From Bacillota bacterium (GTDB taxonomy: Bacteria; Bacillota; Clostridia; Oscillospirales; CAG-272): a stretch of DNA of 38,813 nucleotides. The notes below the pieces were generated by a model. It made no database searches. It saw only the letters and a list, made by a program, of their open reading frames with translations, and was not told where the DNA came from. The translations under genes and the position numbers were made by a program. Shown here in pieces: positions 6,920-23,210 of this stretch. Within the stretch, counting starts at the first letter, position 1, and each line of letters begins with the position of its first letter. The DNA lies in contig JAQXSY010000036.1 of NCBI GenBank assembly GCA_029219205.1, positions 1-38,813 on the forward strand, written 5' to 3'.

Positions 6920-8659
6920 TCACGCTCCCTTCTCTTCGGTCTGCTTGTTCTGCGAATAATAAACCTCTCGGTAAATTTCGCTTTCCGAAAGCAATTCGCT
7001 GTGCGTTCCGACCGCGCTGATCTTTCCGTTGTCCATAACGACAATCTTGTCCGCGTCCTCAACTGACGCAATACGCTGCGCAACGATTATTTTTGTAATC
7101 TCGGGTATTTCGTTTCTGAACGCGTAGCGAAGCATCGCGTCGGTTTTCATATCGACAGCGGAGGTCGAATCGTCAAGGATAAGCACTTTCGGAGACTTCA
7201 GCAGAGCGCGCGCAATGCAAAGACGCTGCTTCTGTCCGCCGGATACGTTTGTTCCGCCCTGCTCGATATACGTATCGTAGCCGTCAGGGAACTGACGGAT
7301 AAAATCGTCCGCCTGCGCAATTTTGCATGCACGCACCATTTCCTCGTCGGTTGCGTTTTTATTGCCCCAGCGAAGGTTATCCTTTATTGTTCCGGAAAAC
7401 AAAACATTCTTCTGAAGCACAACCGAAACCGCGTCGCGCAGTACGGTCATGTCATATTCACGCACATCGACGCCGCCGACCTTAATACAGCCTGACGATA
7501 CGTCATAAAGACGAGATATAAGATTAACCAAAGTTGTTTTTGAAGAACCCGTGCCGCCGATGATTCCGACCGTTTCGCCGGATTTTATATTCAGGTTGAT
7601 TCCCTCAAGCGCATATTTTTCGGCGTTTTCCGAATAACGGAAATTGACGTTTTCGAACACAATACTTCCGTCCCTTACTTTTTCAACGGGATTATCACGG
7701 TTTGTGAGGCTGCTTTCCTCGTCGAGGACCTCGACAATACGCCGAGCCGACTCGGCGGACATCGTGACCATAACGAATATCATCGAAAGCATCTGAAGCG
7801 ACATAAGTATCTGAAGCGAATAGGTGAGCAGGCTCGTCAGACCGAAAACGGTAAGCCCCTGTTCACCGCGCAGTATAATCCGCGAGCCGAAAAATGCAAT
7901 CGCGAGCAAAGCGCCCTGAAGACAAAGCGACATAAGCGGACCGTTGAATGACATAATCCGCTCTGCGCGCGTGAAATCGCGGCACAGCTCGCCTGAAACG
8001 TCGGTAAACTTCTTCGTCTCGTAATCCTCTCTAACATACGCCTTAACAACCCGCATACCGCGTACGTTTTCCTGGATTGAATTGTTCAGATCGTCGTATC
8101 TTTTGAAAACTCTCTGGAATATCGGCATAGCAAGCTTAATTATAAGAAACATTCCGAACGCAAGCACTGGAATTGTTACAAAGAAGATCGTTGGAAGCGT
8201 CGGACTGATCGCAAAGCTCATAATAATTGAAAATATGAACATAAGCGGGCTTCTGATCGCCGTTCGTATTATCATCATAAACGCCATCTGGACGTTGGAT
8301 ATATCGGTCGTCAGACGCGTAACCAGCGACGAAGTCGAAAATTTATCAATATTTGAAAATGAAAATCCCTGAATGTTTTTATACATATCATGGCGCAGAT
8401 TTTTCGCGAAGCCGGTTGAAGCTTTTGCGCATAGCTTTCCGCCAAGCATACCGGCGACAAGAGAAACGCATGCGGCTCCGATCATCATAAAGCCGTAAAA
8501 AAGCATTCCTTTTCCGTCGCCGTTCTGAAGGCGATCGCCGAACCACGCAACGATAAGCGGAATAAGCACTTCCATTGCAACTTCGAGAATCATCATAAGC
8601 GGAGTAAGTATAGATTCCCGCTTGTATTCTCTTAAACATTTCGCTAATTTTTTTATCAT
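6920..8659 (-). CDS. ABC exporter half-transporter with degenerate ATPase site
   Basis: A 579-residue fused permease-ATPase: six membrane segments in residues ~15-310, then the nucleotide-binding domain with Walker A GGTGSSKTTL, signature VSGGQKQR, Walker B LILDDSTSAVD and the H-loop region VAQRIASV. The catalytic Glu after Walker B is Asp, and the H-loop His is Gln. This is the pattern of the non-catalytic partner in heterodimeric exporters such as Thermotoga TM287 (known family behaviour). Its partner gene starts 5 nt downstream, so the two would form one exporter; that partner carries a nonsense codon. It lies directly after tsaB in the same orientation and may be co-transcribed from fhs. 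Substrate unknown (drugs, lipids or peptides are usual). Confidence 0.88.
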   Translation of the reverse strand: MIKKLAKCLREYKRESILTPLMMILEVAMEVLIPLIVAWFGDRLQNGDGKGMLFYGFMMIGAACVSLVAGMLGGKLCAKASTGFAKNLRHDMYKNIQGFSFSNIDKFSTSSLVTRLTTDISNVQMAFMMIIRTAIRSPLMFIFSIIMSFAISPTLPTIFFVTIPVLAFGMFLIIKLAMPIFQRVFKRYDDLNNSIQENVRGMRVVKAYVREDYETKKFTDVSGELCRDFTRAERIMSFNGPLMSLCLQGALLAIAFFGSRIILRGEQGLTVFGLTSLLTYSLQILMSLQMLSMIFVMVTMSAESARRIVEVLDEESSLTNRDNPVEKVRDGSIVFENVNFRYSENAEKYALEGINLNIKSGETVGIIGGTGSSKTTLVNLISRLYDVSSGCIKVGGVDVREYDMTVLRDAVSVVLQKNVLFSGTIKDNLRWGNKNATDEEMVRACKIAQADDFIRQFPDGYDTYIEQGGTNVSGGQKQRLCIARALLKSPKVLILDDSTSAVDMKTDAMLRYAFRNEIPEITKIIVAQRIASVEDADKIVVMDNGKISAVGTHSELLSESEIYREVYYSQNKQTEEKGA

Positions 8660-13996: not shown

Positions 13997-14539
13997 TTAT
14001 AATTTTAAGTTTTTTTCAAGTTTTGAAATCAGCTCAGCCAAGCCGAGTATAACCGCAATCTGTAAAGGAAGCATTACCGCGCATTTAATCAGTCTCGGTA
14101 TTATAAGCACGGAAAAAGCGTTGCCCCAGTACAGATGAAGCCAAAACATATCGAGCGCAAAGGTTATAAATACAACTATCGTAAGAACCGCAGCGGAAAT
14201 CCTAATAATACGCGTGCGCCTCGGAGCCTTATGAACGCCGAAAATGAATACTCCGTAAATGATTCCCATAATCAGCGCCGACACCGTAAATCCGAAGTAC
14301 CAGCCTCCTCCGGACGGAAAAATCAGCATCCCGAGTATATCGGCAACCGCCCATGCAAATCCGGAATAAACCGGCCCGTACAGCATTGCAATGGCTGCGA
14401 TCGGTAAAAAGCCGAAATTAAGCTGCAGTATAGGGGTCTGTATCCCGACAAAACGGTGCAGAACCACCTCAAGCGCAATCATTATGGAAGTTACGGCAAG
14501 CGTCTTTACATACGGTCTGAAAAAATAATTTTTTATCAT
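13997..14539 (-). CDS. folT: folate ECF transporter S component FolT
   Basis: A 180-residue integral membrane protein with about six hydrophobic segments. The pattern MIALEVVLHRFVGIQTPILQLNFGF and the glycine-rich stretch ADILGMLIFPSGGGWYFGFT are typical of the folate-specific S component. This component binds folate and works with the shared ECF ATPases and T protein, which are not in this window. Its start overlaps the folC stop by 4 nt, and both lie downstream of a THF riboswitch, which supports the substrate. The C-terminal KLEKNLKL is normal. Confidence 0.9.
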   Translation of the reverse strand: MIKNYFFRPYVKTLAVTSIMIALEVVLHRFVGIQTPILQLNFGFLPIAAIAMLYGPVYSGFAWAVADILGMLIFPSGGGWYFGFTVSALIMGIIYGVFIFGVHKAPRRTRIIRISAAVLTIVVFITFALDMFWLHLYWGNAFSVLIIPRLIKCAVMLPLQIAVILGLAELISKLEKNLKL

Positions 14540-15900
14540 AAATTATTCCCTCCTGATTCTTCGGACTTATCGAAAATATTTGCGCAGCTCTCCGCGCATG
14601 TCCGGACGTCCGTTTTCGTACTTACTGTTTTGATATATTTGCAAACGGCTTCGGAAGCCTCTGCCGCCATATAAAGAGATCCGAAAATACAAACCGGAAG
14701 CCTGCTTGCAAGCTGCTCGACAAGAGCCGCCCTGACCGCTCCGTCAACAGACTCTCCGTCAAACGCCGCGATTCCCATTTCTTCTGCCATTTCCTTAAGC
14801 CTTACAGACGGCAGTGCGCGGCGGCTGTCGGGCGATGCGGTATACATTTTATAAGTCAGAGGAGCAACCAGCGACAGCATTTCCGTATAGTCCTTGTCGG
14901 CAAGCACGCCGAATACAAATATCCATTTTGGCGCGGTTTTTGAAAGCGTTTCGGCAAGCGCCGAGACTCCGTGCGGATTATGCGAACCATCGAGCACGAT
15001 TAACGGAGCGCGTGAAATCATCTCAAACCTTGCGCGCCAGACGGTTTTTTCAAGTCCGAGTCGAATCGCGCCGTCAGTTATGTCAAAACCGCTTTCCCGA
15101 AGCGCACATGCCGTTTCAACGGCTACCGCGGCATTGTTCAGCTGATATTTTCCGCAAAGCGGTATAAACAGCTCCATGTCCTTATACAGAAAGCGCTGGC
15201 CGCATACACTGTAATCAAGCGGTTTTAAAGCGTCAAAATCCGGTATGCGCAGCCTGGCTCCGGTTTCTTCGCACCTTGACGCGATAACGTCATCCGCTTC
15301 GCGAAGATGTCCGTAGCTGACGGCCCTTCCTCCCTTTATTATCCCCGCTTTTTCAAACGCAATCATCGGTATCGAACCTCCGAGCTCTTTTGTATGGTCA
15401 AGCCCGATCGCGCATATAACCGATACCTCCGGCGACCTGATTATGTTCGTTGCGTCAAGCCGTCCGCCCATGCCAGCTTCAATAACCGCCACCGAGCATC
15501 CGCTTTCGTAAAACCAAAGGAACGCGGCGGCGGTCACAAATTCAAATTCGCTCGGATATTCATACCCGAGTTCCGGAAGCTTTGCAGCAGCTTTTTCAAC
15601 CTTCGACGCCGTTCTCTCAAATTCGTCCGCGTTTATCGGTTCTCCGTTTAGACAAATCCTTTCGTTAAACGAAAATACGCCCGGAGAAGTGTACAAACCG
15701 GTTTTGTATCCCGCTTCCTTCAGTAACGATGCAATCATTGCCGCCGTGCTTCCCTTGCCGTTTGTCCCGGCAATCTGCACAGTTTTTATCCGGTCCTGCG
15801 GATCCTCCAACAGCTTCATAAGCGCTCGCATCCGTTCAAGCCCGGGAAAACTTCCCTGCCTTATATACGGCGATTCAAGCGTATTCTTTCTAATTTTCAC
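14536..15900 (-). CDS. folC: folylpolyglutamate synthase / dihydrofolate synthase
   Basis: A 454-residue Mur-ligase-family enzyme that adds glutamate to folates, trapping them in the cell. The P-loop IAGTNGKGSTAAMIASLL (about 42-60), TSPGVFSFNERI, EAGMGGRLDATNII, GLDHTKELG and the C-terminal LDGSHNPHG motif are all present. The GTG start at 15900 has GGAGGTG about 10 nt upstream. The leader carries a THF riboswitch, and folT overlaps its end by 4 nt, so uptake and retention of folate are made together. Confidence 0.95.
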   Translation of the reverse strand: MKIRKNTLESPYIRQGSFPGLERMRALMKLLEDPQDRIKTVQIAGTNGKGSTAAMIASLLKEAGYKTGLYTSPGVFSFNERICLNGEPINADEFERTASKVEKAAAKLPELGYEYPSEFEFVTAAAFLWFYESGCSVAVIEAGMGGRLDATNIIRSPEVSVICAIGLDHTKELGGSIPMIAFEKAGIIKGGRAVSYGHLREADDVIASRCEETGARLRIPDFDALKPLDYSVCGQRFLYKDMELFIPLCGKYQLNNAAVAVETACALRESGFDITDGAIRLGLEKTVWRARFEMISRAPLIVLDGSHNPHGVSALAETLSKTAPKWIFVFGVLADKDYTEMLSLVAPLTYKMYTASPDSRRALPSVRLKEMAEEMGIAAFDGESVDGAVRAALVEQLASRLPVCIFGSLYMAAEASEAVCKYIKTVSTKTDVRTCAESCANIFDKSEESGGNNL

Positions 15901-15965: not shown

Positions 15966-16090
15966 CATCAGCGGGATGCGGACTATCCACCGCAAAAACC
16001 ATTGTCCAAGACAAAGCTTAAACAAGTTTTTTTCGTCCGCCCGGCAACTCCCCGTCCAAACGGCACTTCACGCAGATTGTCCTACTCTGT
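15966..16090 (-). promoter_or_regulatory. tetrahydrofolate (THF) riboswitch
   Basis: Read on the minus strand, the leader starts with ACAGAGTAGG, continues with TGCGTGAAGTGCC and GGACGGGGAGTTG and ends with CCGCATCCCGCTGA. From memory, this follows the Eubacterium siraeum THF aptamer almost segment by segment. Pairing P2 (GGACAATC with GATAGTCC) and P3 (CCGTTTG with CGGGCGG) can be drawn. The short hairpin found in that aptamer is replaced by a much longer A/T-rich one (about 15993-16033). Aptamers of this class bind reduced folate and usually lower expression of folate genes; folC and folT follow. Confidence 0.88.
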
Positions 16091-16101
16091 TTTTTATTAA
16101 T

Positions 16102-19046: not shown

Positions 19047-19772
19047 TTATTTTAGTACCTTTGACAAAAACTCGATTGTTCTCGGATTCTGCGGATTTGA
19101 AAAGAACTCTTCAGGATTGTTTTCTTCAACAATGACTCCGCCGTCCATAAACATGATTCTTGTTCCGACCTCGTGTGCAAACCCCATTTCATGGGTTACC
19201 ACAATCATGGTCATTCCGTCTGCGGCAAGTTCGCGCATAACATCGAGAACCTCTCCGACCATTTCCGGATCGAGCGCCGAGGTTGGCTCGTCGAAAAGCA
19301 TTACGTCCGGATTCATTGCAAGTGCGCGCACAATGGCAATACGCTGCTTCTGACCGCCGGAAAGCTGTCCGGGATACGCGTCCGCTTTGTCGCTCAGACC
19401 GATACGCGAAAGCAGGCGAAGCGCATTTTCGTTTGCCTCTTCCTTTGACATAAGTTTAAGCTTCACGGGGGCAAGCGTTATGTTTTTTAGTATGGTCAGA
19501 TGCGGAAAAAGATGAAAATGCTGAAAAACCATTCCCATTTTGCGCCTGAGCAAATCAATGTCGCACTTTGGGGCGTTTATCTGTGTGCCCTCAAAAAAGA
19601 TTTTACCGTCAGTAGGCTTTTCAAGCAGATTGAGGCAGCGGAGAAAAGTACTCTTTCCCGAACCGGACGGTCCGATAACCGCAACTTTTTCTCCCTTTTT
19701 GATTTCAGTCGTTATCCCGTTCAGAACACGGTTGGTGCCGAAATCTTTGATCAGGTTTTCAACGTTTATCAC
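19047..19772 (-). CDS. polar amino-acid ABC transporter ATP-binding protein
   Basis: About 241 residues of the GlnQ/ArtP/HisP family. Walker [11 protein letters not shown]-loop [12 protein letters not shown], signature LSGGQKQR, Walker [12 protein letters not shown] and the H-loop VVTHEMGFA are all intact. The GTG at 19772 (VINVENL) is preferred: AGGAGG sits about 10 nt upstream, and the longer frame to 19793 would absorb that site. It overlaps the end of the permease gene by 14 nt, forming a binding protein-permease-ATPase operon. The likely substrate is a polar amino acid, given the family of the binding protein. Confidence 0.92.
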
Positions 19773-20514
19773 TTGCCCTGAGCCTCCTCTCAAGTATTCC
19801 GAAAATCTTTGTCAGGCATATGACCATCACAAGATAAACAAGCGCAACGGCTATCAGCGGCATAAACGGCTGATATGTCAGGCTTCGTATAATATCTCCG
19901 CCTCTGGTCAGGTCGTCAAGACCGATATAGCCGGCGACCGACGTTTCCTTGAGCAGAGTTATAAATTCGTTTGCAAGCGCAGGAAGTATGTTCTTGATCG
20001 CCTGAGGAAGAATTATACTGACCATTGTTTTGCTGTAATTGAGTCCGAGACTTCTTCCGGCCTCCATCTGCCCGATGTCGATGGACATAATTCCCGAGCG
20101 TACGATCTCAGAAACGTATGCGCCCGAGTTTATGCCGAACGCGGCGATGGCAACAACCGTTTTATTTATGTTGACCGTCGCAAAAATTACATAATACATA
20201 ATCATGAGCTGAAGCACCATAGGCGTTCCGCGTATGATCGTCACATACAGCTTCGCTATGGAATCGAGCAACTTCAATTTTCCGGTATGCTCATGTGCGG
20301 AACGTATCACGGCAATTATCACGCCGAGCACGACTCCCATAATAAGCGCTCCCAAGGATATGACTATGGTGTTTGCAAGACCGTCGGTCAGATATTTCCA
20401 TCTGTCGTCCTTTATAAAACAGATATAAAAAACGTTCTTCAGATCTTCAAACCACCCTGCCACCGCGGCAAAAAAAGTATTCATCGGAGCGCATGACATT
20501 AATATATTCTGCAT
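19759..20514 (-). CDS. polar amino-acid ABC transporter permease
   Basis: A 251-residue permease of the HisM/GlnP/ArtQ family. Membrane segments lie at about residues 50-75, 90-115, 125-145, 190-215 and 220-240. The cytoplasmic EAA loop reads [24 protein letters not shown], as in amino-acid importers. A hydrophilic N-terminal stretch with [22 protein letters not shown] precedes the first segment. The ATG at 20514 has GGGAG 6 nt upstream. It follows the binding-protein gene by about 70 nt and overlaps the ATPase gene. Confidence 0.92.
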
Positions 20515-20585: not shown

Positions 20586-21389
20586 TTACTTCGCTCTTAC
20601 GATAATAACCTGCGTTGCCTCGATATAGGAATCTGTAAAGTCAACGCTCTCAAGTCTGTCCGGCTTGATTGTAAGTCCGGAAAGACCGATATCAGTCTTG
20701 CCGCTTGCAACGGAAGCGATGACTGAATCAAAGTTCATGCAGTCCCATACGATGTTATAACCGATAATGTCCGCCATAGCCTGAATCATATCTGCGTCAA
20801 AACCGACGACCTTGTCGCCTTCCATGGATTCATACGGCGGGAAGTCAGGAGACGTTGCAATTCTAAGCGTTCCGGCGCTTCTGTCAACATTTTCGGGAGA
20901 TGTGTAAGTATAGGGAACCTTGCTTCCATCTTCCGCACACCAGTTGTCGTAAATCTTCTGGAGCGTGCCGTTTTCCTTTATTGTTTTTAGAGCGCCGTTG
21001 AGAAGCTCAGTAAGCTCCGTATTGCCCTTTTTAACTGCAATTGCGTAAAGCTCGGAAGCAAGTACGTCGTCCAGTATCTTTAAATCGGAATTTGCCGCAA
21101 CAAACGCAGCCGCAGGCTGGTTGTCGATAATAACGCAGTCGATCTTGCCCTGCTTTAAAGCGAGAATTGCGTCGTTAGCTTTTGTGTAGCGCTCAACAGT
21201 TGCGCCCTTTTCCTTGTAGGTATCTGCTATGTCGGCTCCTGTTGTGCCGCTCTGTACGCCTATTTTCTTTCCGGCGAGATCAGCCTCTGAAAAAACCGTG
21301 TTAGCAGGTACACTGCCGCACGCAGCAAACGCTGCAAGAACCATCAGCAATGCGATTGCAACCGCAAAAATCTTAATTGTAAATTTCAT
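20586..21389 (-). CDS. circularly permuted amino-acid solute-binding lipoprotein (SBP_bac_3)
   Basis: A 267-residue lipoprotein (lipobox LAAFAAC, Cys24) that binds the transporter's amino acid outside the membrane. The domain order is reversed. Residues 37-154 correspond to the second half of a normal family member: DLAGKKIGVQSGTT, then ALKTIKENGTLQKIYDNW, which is usually the C-terminal end. Residues 174-264 correspond to the usual mature N-terminus: LRIATSPDFPPYES, VGFDADMIQAMA, SGLTIKPDRLESVDFTDSY, ending with VIIVRAK. The two halves are joined by a ~18-residue linker. Ligand-binding features are all kept (Arg245, SGLT, GTT at 48-50, Asp89), so the fold is probably intact and functional. 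The ATG at 21389 has TGGAGG 5-10 nt upstream; a TTG at 21401 is a weaker alternative. First gene of the importer operon. Confidence 0.9.
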   Translation of the reverse strand: MKFTIKIFAVAIALLMVLAAFAACGSVPANTVFSEADLAGKKIGVQSGTTGADIADTYKEKGATVERYTKANDAILALKQGKIDCVIIDNQPAAAFVAANSDLKILDDVLASELYAIAVKKGNTELTELLNGALKTIKENGTLQKIYDNWCAEDGSKVPYTYTSPENVDRSAGTLRIATSPDFPPYESMEGDKVVGFDADMIQAMADIIGYNIVWDCMNFDSVIASVASGKTDIGLSGLTIKPDRLESVDFTDSYIEATQVIIVRAK

Positions 21390-21485
21390 TTTGTCCTCCA
21401 AAAATTTATAATAATTTTTTTGATTTTTTAATGAATTCCATTTGCTTGAAAATTGTTATTGAATTAATTTTTAAAAACTGCTTTG

Positions 21486-23210
21486 TTAATTCTTGTTACC
21501 AAGCTTTATTTCTATTACTGCCATTCCACCTGCTTCAAGCTTTATTGACATTAATTTATCAGATAAAGCTATATCATGTCCGTCGTAAATATCTTCGGCA
21601 CTGATAACTGAATAGTCACCTGTATATGTAATTTCAAGATCGACAGACTGTGTTTCATAAACAATCTCTGGTTCGTTTATGCTCTTATAAACGCCCCGGT
21701 TGTTGAATACATAAAGATACAGCGCACCGTCTTTTACCTTAACAGTGTATCCGATGTCATCGGAGAATGTAAAAGGCATATATTTTTTATGAAGCTCTTC
21801 AAGAATGGTCTTGAGTCCGCCCAACCGCCAATCGTCAGATGCCTGAATTAAAGTGTAGCCGTATTGATCTTTATACTTATCATAAAGTCCCCCATTACCG
21901 TATATCATGAAAGATCCGTTTCCGTAAGTCAACTCTTTATATGTCTGCTGTTCGAGATCGGGAAAATCAATACCTTTTTTCTCAAATTGTTCAAGATAAG
22001 CCGTGTTGAGCACAAGTGTACCGCCGTTTTTAACGTAATCGGTATACATTTTCAGCTCATCATCGGAAAGGATTATGTTTCCCGTGAATATGAGTACGGG
22101 ATATGTTTCAAGCAGCTCGTATGATGCGTCCTGGAGCAACAAGTCGAATGAATCGCCGTATTTTGTGTTTGCCATAACGCTCGATTCGTTGCTGTATGTG
22201 CCCTCTAAAGCGCCCGGCCATATGTAATCGTTGAAAAAGTTATATGTGAATATGTCGGGCTCTTCACATGGGAATGTTCCGAAAACCTTTTCCGCTCCTA
22301 CCATGTCCATGCCGTGGTATTTATCGAGAATAACGGCATATGGAGTATAAGTTGTTCCGATGTCGTAATACTTACTTGTGAATGCGTAAAGCTTTTGGCA
22401 AAGCTCACCGAAAGGCGTGATATTGCCTTGACTGTCATATGCTATATATTGACCGCCCTCTGCTATTGTCGCATCGGCGCCAGCCATGAATGACAAAAGT
22501 AAACTGCGTTCCATGAGATTGAGCGAATGACCGCCGTTAACGGAGCTGTTTTCACCCCATACAGGATTGCTGTCTCTGTAATCAAGAATGTAACCGCCAT
22601 ACCATTGCGAGAAGTCAACAAACCAAGTTGCGCCGTACTGTTTTGCGGCGCCTCTGTTCATTGCAAGCCTGAGCTGGTACGATGGCATTCCTTCACCGAT
22701 TTCCGTGCCGATATTTTCATATCCCGCCATACCGGCATAGTGATGCCAAGGATAATGACCGTTCATTGAGGTTAGAGGCAAATCTCCGTTTGCCTTTGAT
22801 AAAAACTGTTGATTGAGGTAGTCAAGAATCTTTTCCACTGCTTCTTCACGCGATTTGGGGGCATTTTCACCTGTGAAATTTGTTTCGTGATACACTCCGG
22901 CTCCGTCAGTCTGACCGTCAAGATGTAATATTGCATATCCCCATTCGCCGGCAGATGATTTTTGGTGCATAAAATCTCCGCCAAAATTGTTATAGTTTAC
23001 ACCTAAGGCATCTTCTATTATTTTGTCGGATGTGTATTCGACAATAAACTGAAATCTGTCATCGAGCAAAGCTCTTCCGTTCCATAGCTCTGCATTTTTG
23101 ATAAGCTCGCTTGCGTAAAACGCTTTTTCCTCCGGGGTTGAAGCTGCACTGCATCCGGCTGTGGCAAGCATCAATAGTGTGAGCGCTGCGGAAATAATTT
23201 TTTTTGTCAT
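21486..23210 (-). CDS. secreted lipoprotein of unknown function, glycoside-hydrolase-like
   Basis: A 574-residue lipoprotein (lipobox LATAGCS, Cys at about 20). The middle (residues ~155-300) resembles a barrel-type glycoside hydrolase or sugar-binding fold, with aromatic-rich stretches (YPWHHYAGMAGYENIG, WFVDFSQWYGGY). A Rossmann/trimerisation-like segment follows (VLIFTGNIILSDDELKMYTDYVKNGG), as in GH42-type enzymes. The C-terminus is beta-rich. I do not recognise a precise family, and catalytic residues cannot be assigned. The start has GGAGG 4-5 nt before the ATG, and a promoter lies upstream. It lies about 100 nt before the amino-acid importer and may be co-transcribed. Its codon use is more A/T-rich than its neighbours, which could reflect transfer. 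Confidence 0.55.
   Translation of the reverse strand: MTKKIISAALTLLMLATAGCSAASTPEEKAFYASELIKNAELWNGRALLDDRFQFIVEYTSDKIIEDALGVNYNNFGGDFMHQKSSAGEWGYAILHLDGQTDGAGVYHETNFTGENAPKSREEAVEKILDYLNQQFLSKANGDLPLTSMNGHYPWHHYAGMAGYENIGTEIGEGMPSYQLRLAMNRGAAKQYGATWFVDFSQWYGGYILDYRDSNPVWGENSSVNGGHSLNLMERSLLLSFMAGADATIAEGGQYIAYDSQGNITPFGELCQKLYAFTSKYYDIGTTYTPYAVILDKYHGMDMVGAEKVFGTFPCEEPDIFTYNFFNDYIWPGALEGTYSNESSVMANTKYGDSFDLLLQDASYELLETYPVLIFTGNIILSDDELKMYTDYVKNGGTLVLNTAYLEQFEKKGIDFPDLEQQTYKELTYGNGSFMIYGNGGLYDKYKDQYGYTLIQASDDWRLGGLKTILEELHKKYMPFTFSDDIGYTVKVKDGALYLYVFNNRGVYKSINEPEIVYETQSVDLEITYTGDYSVISAEDIYDGHDIALSDKLMSIKLEAGGMAVIEIKLGNKN

Follow-up and report, generated by a model that had tools for sequence, protein, structure and literature searches.

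A circularly permuted amino-acid-type solute-binding protein in an ABC importer operon and its recurrence in Clostridia

The importer operon and its binding protein

The window, that is, the whole stretch of 38,813 nucleotides analysed here, carries on its reverse strand a solute-binding protein (SBP) gene in an operon with genes for an amino-acid permease and an ATPase (Table 1). Both partner genes were found to be intact, as the preliminary description had stated. The complete open reading frame of the SBP spans 20586-21401 (-), with a likely ATG start at 21389 that yields a protein of 267 aa. Immediately upstream of it lies a gene for a lipoprotein-like protein, and a tetrahydrofolate riboswitch was detected elsewhere in the window. 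Neither a riboswitch nor a T-box that could give a clue to the ligand was found near the window operon or in the loci of 20 relatives.

The segments of the protein were named after those of a normal SBP, which reads A-B-C, A being the N-terminal part of lobe 1, B lobe 2 and C the C-terminal part of lobe 1. In the window protein, a putative signal peptide and a lipobox-like FAA-C are followed by DLAGKKIGVQSGTTG..., and the C-terminal stretch runs from GTLRIATSPDFPPYES... to VIIVRAK, the first crossover strand, in which segment A terminates.

Table 1. Features of the importer locus and of its surroundings in the window.
Feature	Position	Strand	Basis
Circularly permuted SBP_bac_3 solute-binding lipoprotein, 267 aa, order B-C-A	20586..21389	-	phmmer, PF00497, AlphaFold2
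Putative signal peptide with lipobox FAA-Cys24, residues 1-23	21321..21389	-	read off translation
Segment B, lobe 2, residues 37-108 (DLAGKKIGVQSGTTG ... SDLKIL), with T49/T50 and D89	21066..21281	-	sequence alignment
Segment C, second crossover strand and lobe 1 C-terminal helices, residues 109-155	20925..21065	-	alignment and AlphaFold2
Linker between old C- and N-termini, residues 156-172 (EDGSKVPYTYTSPENVD-RSA)	20874..20924	-	linker comparison
Segment A, lobe 1 N-terminal part, residues 173-267, with T240 and R245	20589..20873	-	alignment and AlphaFold2
Amino-acid ABC permease (BPD_transp_1 / HEQRo_perm_3TM)	19759..20514	-	profile matches
Amino-acid ABC ATPase (GlnQ/TcyN-like)	19047..19793	-	profile matches
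Lipoprotein-like protein, 574 aa, immediately upstream of the SBP	21486..23210	-	no Pfam or NCBIfam family above cut-off
Tetrahydrofolate riboswitch, upstream of an ORF at 14536-15900 (-)	15967..16091	-	77 bits

Segment order, predicted fold and ligand site

As judged from sequence matches, the window gene encodes an SBP of the SBP_bac_3 family and of the lipoprotein type in circularly permuted order. In phmmer searches against PDB sequences, residues 36-157 of the query aligned to residues 109-233 of AncQR (84.6 bits), and residues 176-269 (in the numbering of the 271-aa frame) aligned to AncQR residues 9-103 (71.3 bits). The AncQR stretches were therefore matched in reversed order, and other SBPs gave the same reversal. 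The PF00497 profile matched the protein twice, also in reversed order and within one reading frame (120.5 bits, against a curated cut-off of 26.4), and many NCBIfam SBP models likewise matched it in two reversed stretches; the profile searches of this protein turned up no Pfam or NCBIfam model specific to the permuted order. In place of the ordinary lobe 1 - lobe 2 - lobe 1 order with two crossovers, the chain reads lobe 2 - lobe 1C - lobe 1N, and this reversal of both halves relative to the reference, which marks a natural circular permutation, was also found in independent genomes. These results bear out the permutation that the preliminary description had proposed, together with a break at the inter-lobe crossover (the cut was placed at the first of the two) and a short linker joining the old termini, located at about residues 156-172.

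An assembly error or an adjacent repeat had been named as what might have produced the order. Both were excluded by homologues with the same order in dozens of independent assemblies, including isolates and single-contig genomes, and this recurrence also rules out chance similarity. A second importer of the same genome, whose SBP is cut at the other inter-lobe crossover, likewise argues against an assembly artefact. The genome of the window contains three SBP_bac_3 genes, one of them in normal order (G000:C6). The other paralogue (G000:C64, at 7650-8501 of locus L006) is permuted at the second crossover in the order CAB; it begins with YVILSENFGDEQYAIAFRKG (segment C), continues with A and has lobe 2 last, and it has a permease and an ATPase of its own. 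Since the window SBP has the order BCA, two importers of one genome are cut at two different crossovers.

The structure prediction that had been suggested as a check gave a confident model of the window protein. AlphaFold2, run on the window protein together with 68 relatives (complete BCA proteins, and uninterrupted stretches of other proteins), returned a mean pLDDT of 95.2 and a pTM of 0.88, and the model shows a long strand at both positions where a crossover is expected (model residues 88-97 and 233-242). The CAB paralogue was modelled with a pLDDT of 95.9 and a pTM of 0.90, and its A-B part, which comprises both lobes, superposes on the closed, ligand-bound SBPs ArgBP, AncCDT-1 and an S. 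pneumoniae SBP at 1.4-1.9 Å over about 180 columns. The top Foldseek match of the BCA model was 6h30 (GlnPQ SBD1-SBD2), which ranks first because it reads B-C-A across its tandem junction; other type II folds followed with low TM-scores, as a permutation would predict in a sequential comparison. The whole BCA model is not superposable on a normal SBP by sequential Foldseek, and the canonical two-lobe fold predicted for the window protein rests on model confidence, segment order and the CAB counterpart.

The ligand-contact motifs had been described as kept, and the alignments agree: T240 and R245 in lobe 1, and T49/T50 and D89 in lobe 2, are aligned and are conserved at 89-100% alike in ABC, BCA and CAB genes. 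R245, T49/T50 and D89 correspond to what we take, from established SBP structures, to be the alpha-amino-acid site, and their conservation suggests that the ligand is most likely an amino acid. That it is polar or basic, as the best matches would have it, is only a guess.

Distribution, cut sites and history of the permuted proteins

A profile of the C-linker-A junction served as the survey probe, and matches spanning the whole model were considered. Such matches were found throughout the order to which the window belongs. Of 391 genomes sampled from the class, with that order among them, 67 had one (E<=1e-40), but only 7 of 398 genomes drawn from the phylum did, three of these seven lying outside the class. 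The segment order of each locus was then read with segment-specific HMMs, and about 190 permuted genes were classified in total, from many families of the order and class and with cultured isolates of Blautia, Acetivibrio, Thermoclostridium and Thermobacillus among them. The single non-identical genes comprised 122 CAB, 52 BCA (one of them, L104, on an unreliable contig) and 23 ABC, totals that come from a junction-directed search and are not frequencies. BCA and CAB were each found in a dozen families of the order, including that of the window. The relatives of the window place its source in Bacillota and, very probably, in Clostridia. Among named records, BCA is present in Blautia schinkii MSK.6.26, and CAB in Thermoclostridium caenicola DSM 19027, Acetivibrio straminisolvens, A. 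mesophilus and Faecalicatena contorta and, outside Clostridia, in Thermobacillus xylanilyticus. Almost every permuted SBP has permease and ATPase genes as neighbours or is fused with them. In answer to how widespread the order is in Clostridia, which had been raised with the original observation, the permuted topology is no isolated case: it occurs commonly in the order and class, with several origins, at least three cut positions, and tandem and permease-fused versions.

In the BCA type found in the window, the cut falls right after the crossover-1 strand and leaves a C-terminal tail of 2-6 residues. A long-tailed BCA sub-form (L010, L017 and others) has its cut about 20 residues further on, between the first helix and the first strand of lobe 2, and a tail of 20-27 residues. 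The CAB cut lies at crossover 2, and in one gene (L239, G870:C124) it lies within lobe 2, the protein ending in ...GKKIGVQIGTTGDIAITKLIEGK and starting with the remainder of that lobe. Crossover 1, crossover 2 and the site within lobe 2 make at least three cut positions, or four if the BCA sub-form is counted.

Fusions of single units to the permease were found for BCA (three) and for CAB (two, one of which, L120, is ended by a contig edge). Tandem forms comprised BCAx2-permease (five), BCAx2-permease-ATPase in a single chain of about 1130-1210 aa (five), BCAx3-permease (one) and BCAx4-permease (one array, counted again as a shorter locus), as well as ABCx2-permease (four) and ABCx3-permease (two). 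In L107, L108, L109, L110 and L112, single ORFs of that chain length encode two permuted SBP units, a permease and an ATPase, that is, an entire amino-acid importer as one polypeptide. One operon (L080, G279:C33) contains adjacent CAB and BCA genes, in that order, ahead of the permease and ATPase genes. In L104 (G085:C16), the SBP array continues in frame into an unrelated tail of 480 residues, phage-like by eye, which probably results from contig chimerism or from an insertion.

Phylogenies were computed from segments restored to a common order. The tree of 176 units needed 15 topology changes and that of 103 single genes, obtained with a careful search, needed 16; the well supported branches by themselves required the BCA label to change at least 7 times and the CAB label at least 4 times, and such counts carry no direction. 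A single CAB clade was rejected (p-AU 1e-5), as was a single BCA clade (p-AU 4e-55), and these AU tests rule out one ancestral permutation inherited by all. Permutation has arisen time and again, with different cut sites, among the importers of Clostridia and related bacteria. Nested within CAB is a clade made up of the long-tailed BCA genes.

The ABC gene of Ruminococcus sp. HAN025 (L194) groups with full support with two BCA genes, L061 and L128. Once reordered, the L194 and L128 proteins are 86% identical over 196 residues, and their operons are syntenic, with permeases 81% and ATPases 88% identical and a collinear upstream gene of about 80% DNA identity, indicating that the topology change there was recent and took place at the same operon. 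The main BCA clade has a conserved linker, YIGDD.KG.SPY.SPEG.DRSNG, which is recognisable in the window protein as CAEDGSKVPYTYTSPENVDRSAG; the window linker resembles those of the clade in length and in the motif PY.SPE..DRS. This conservation suggests common descent of the clade and would make L194 a candidate reversion.

Function, origin and relation to known systems

The B-C-A order, the linker, the binding-site residues, the intact permease and ATPase genes and the recurrence are read from sequence, and the two-lobe fold is predicted. On these grounds, the product of the window gene is very probably a working binding protein for amino acids: a type II Venus-flytrap SBP, anchored in the membrane, that serves a type I ABC importer and has its permutation at the first inter-lobe crossover. 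Its cleft would bind a polar or basic amino acid, which would be handed to the homodimeric permease as by ordinary SBPs, in the usual cycle of capture, lobe closing and docking on the permease. With the cut at the crossover, lobe 1 becomes continuous and a single covalent crossover, not two, connects the lobes; the lipid anchor would be shifted to the hinge side of lobe 2. As the preliminary description had suggested, the permutation might alter the closing of the lobes.

Such proteins probably originated by tandem duplication or fusion of the binding domain and subsequent loss of the flanking segments, repeatedly and with different cut points. The ABCABC(-ABC)-permease and (BCA)n-permease arrays of the same order are the precursors that the permutation-by-duplication model requires (PMC3320104), and the linkers between array units are of about the same length as those of the permuted genes. 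Saposin/swaposin and DNA methyltransferases, known cases of permutation by duplication, share the proposed origin via a tandem duplicate but are unrelated proteins (PMC3320104). The duplication model also allows partly duplicated intermediates (e.g., ABCA), and none were seen among the classified genes, which would fit an origin in which lobes encoded separately after a fission were fused again, or a cut-and-paste within the gene, as would the relocation of the A block as a unit in the 86% identical pair. Against these routes stand the tandem arrays that occur within the same order in ABC as well as BCA register and the lack of isolated-lobe genes beside permeases in the loci read, a search-biased sample; we regard them as the less probable origin, although one with an appreciable chance.

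Since each lobe is now a continuous chain with one crossover, lobe swapping is conceivable, in which lobe 2 of one molecule closes on lobe 1 of another, and the (BCA)n arrays especially could be domain-swapped chains. In BCABCA arrays each lobe is flanked by lobes of the other kind, making alternative pairing topologically possible, and ArgBP of T. maritima is a domain-swapped SBP of this kind. However, the AlphaFold2 monomer packs the whole chain confidently (pTM 0.88) and the majority of permuted genes contain just one unit and specify a lipoprotein of the ordinary kind, so that a swapped oligomer appears improbable. The rather long branch of the window protein (0.58-0.78 in both trees) could be that of a rearranged SBP heading to a pseudogene and tolerated alongside another importer; this is very hard to reconcile with an open frame, an intact lipobox, conserved binding residues, an intact operon and a topology maintained over many families of the order. 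Beyond the functional permuted SBP preferred here, it may be, although we consider it doubtful, that chain topology in this family is labile in Clostridia, with cuts at both crossovers and within lobe 2 interconverted via tandem fusions, and that some changes were selected as a single-crossover hinge and a moved anchor alter closing or docking; lobes of (BCA)n arrays might even trade partners.

The closest precedent is TpMglB-2 (Tp0684) of Treponema pallidum, a naturally permuted, lipid-anchored SBP of an ABC importer, described as 'type Ic / cluster Bc', with relatives in treponemes and Gram-positive bacteria (PMC4990184). It retains binding and ligand-induced compaction, and its authors speculated on anchoring (PMC4990184). 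The window SBP resembles it as a natural circular permutation, as a lipid-anchored protein and as part of an ABC importer. However, TpMglB-2 is a type I, cluster B sugar binder in which one lobe is reordered and a fourth crossover added (PMC4990184), whereas the window SBP is of type II and of amino-acid family 3, its cuts lie at inter-lobe crossovers (elsewhere in some relatives) and one crossover is removed. Assignment to the type Ic SBPs was rejected, as the matches obtained, by sequence and by fold alike, were type II SBPs. In GlnPQ (PDB 6h30; PMC8025302), tandem SBP_bac_3 domains fused to the permease show the C-linker-A order across their junction, but each domain is in normal A-B-C order, which makes it a possible precursor architecture and not a permuted protein. 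AncQR, GlnH, T. maritima ArgBP and HisJ share with the window SBP the fold (predicted here), the binding-site residues and a partner permease and ATPase; unlike it, they have the normal order, a discontinuous lobe 1 and two crossovers.

Sequence searches with BCA or CAB queries found no solved permuted homologue, only the tandem 6h30 spanning the junction. In the part of the literature covered, we found no report of natural permutation in a type II (family 3) SBP; TpMglB-2 alone surfaced as a natural permuted SBP, and recent permutation-detection papers make no mention of SBPs. As a class, natural SBP permutation was thus already known once, in a type I protein, and what appears new here is its occurrence in type II, its unusual recurrence and its several cut sites.

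Circularly permuting a binding protein is a step often taken in engineering biosensors, and to our knowledge natural permuted SBPs are hardly documented. The proteins described here form a large natural set that samples several cut positions at the hinge and includes normal and permuted relatives up to 86% identical in the same operon. With them, the mechanics of the hinge, the placement of the anchor, the docking of the lobes and the permutation-by-duplication model can be put to a direct test. This protein-rewiring experiment has been run by nature in many versions, and annotation that is blind to domain order has concealed a widespread structural rearrangement in gut bacteria.
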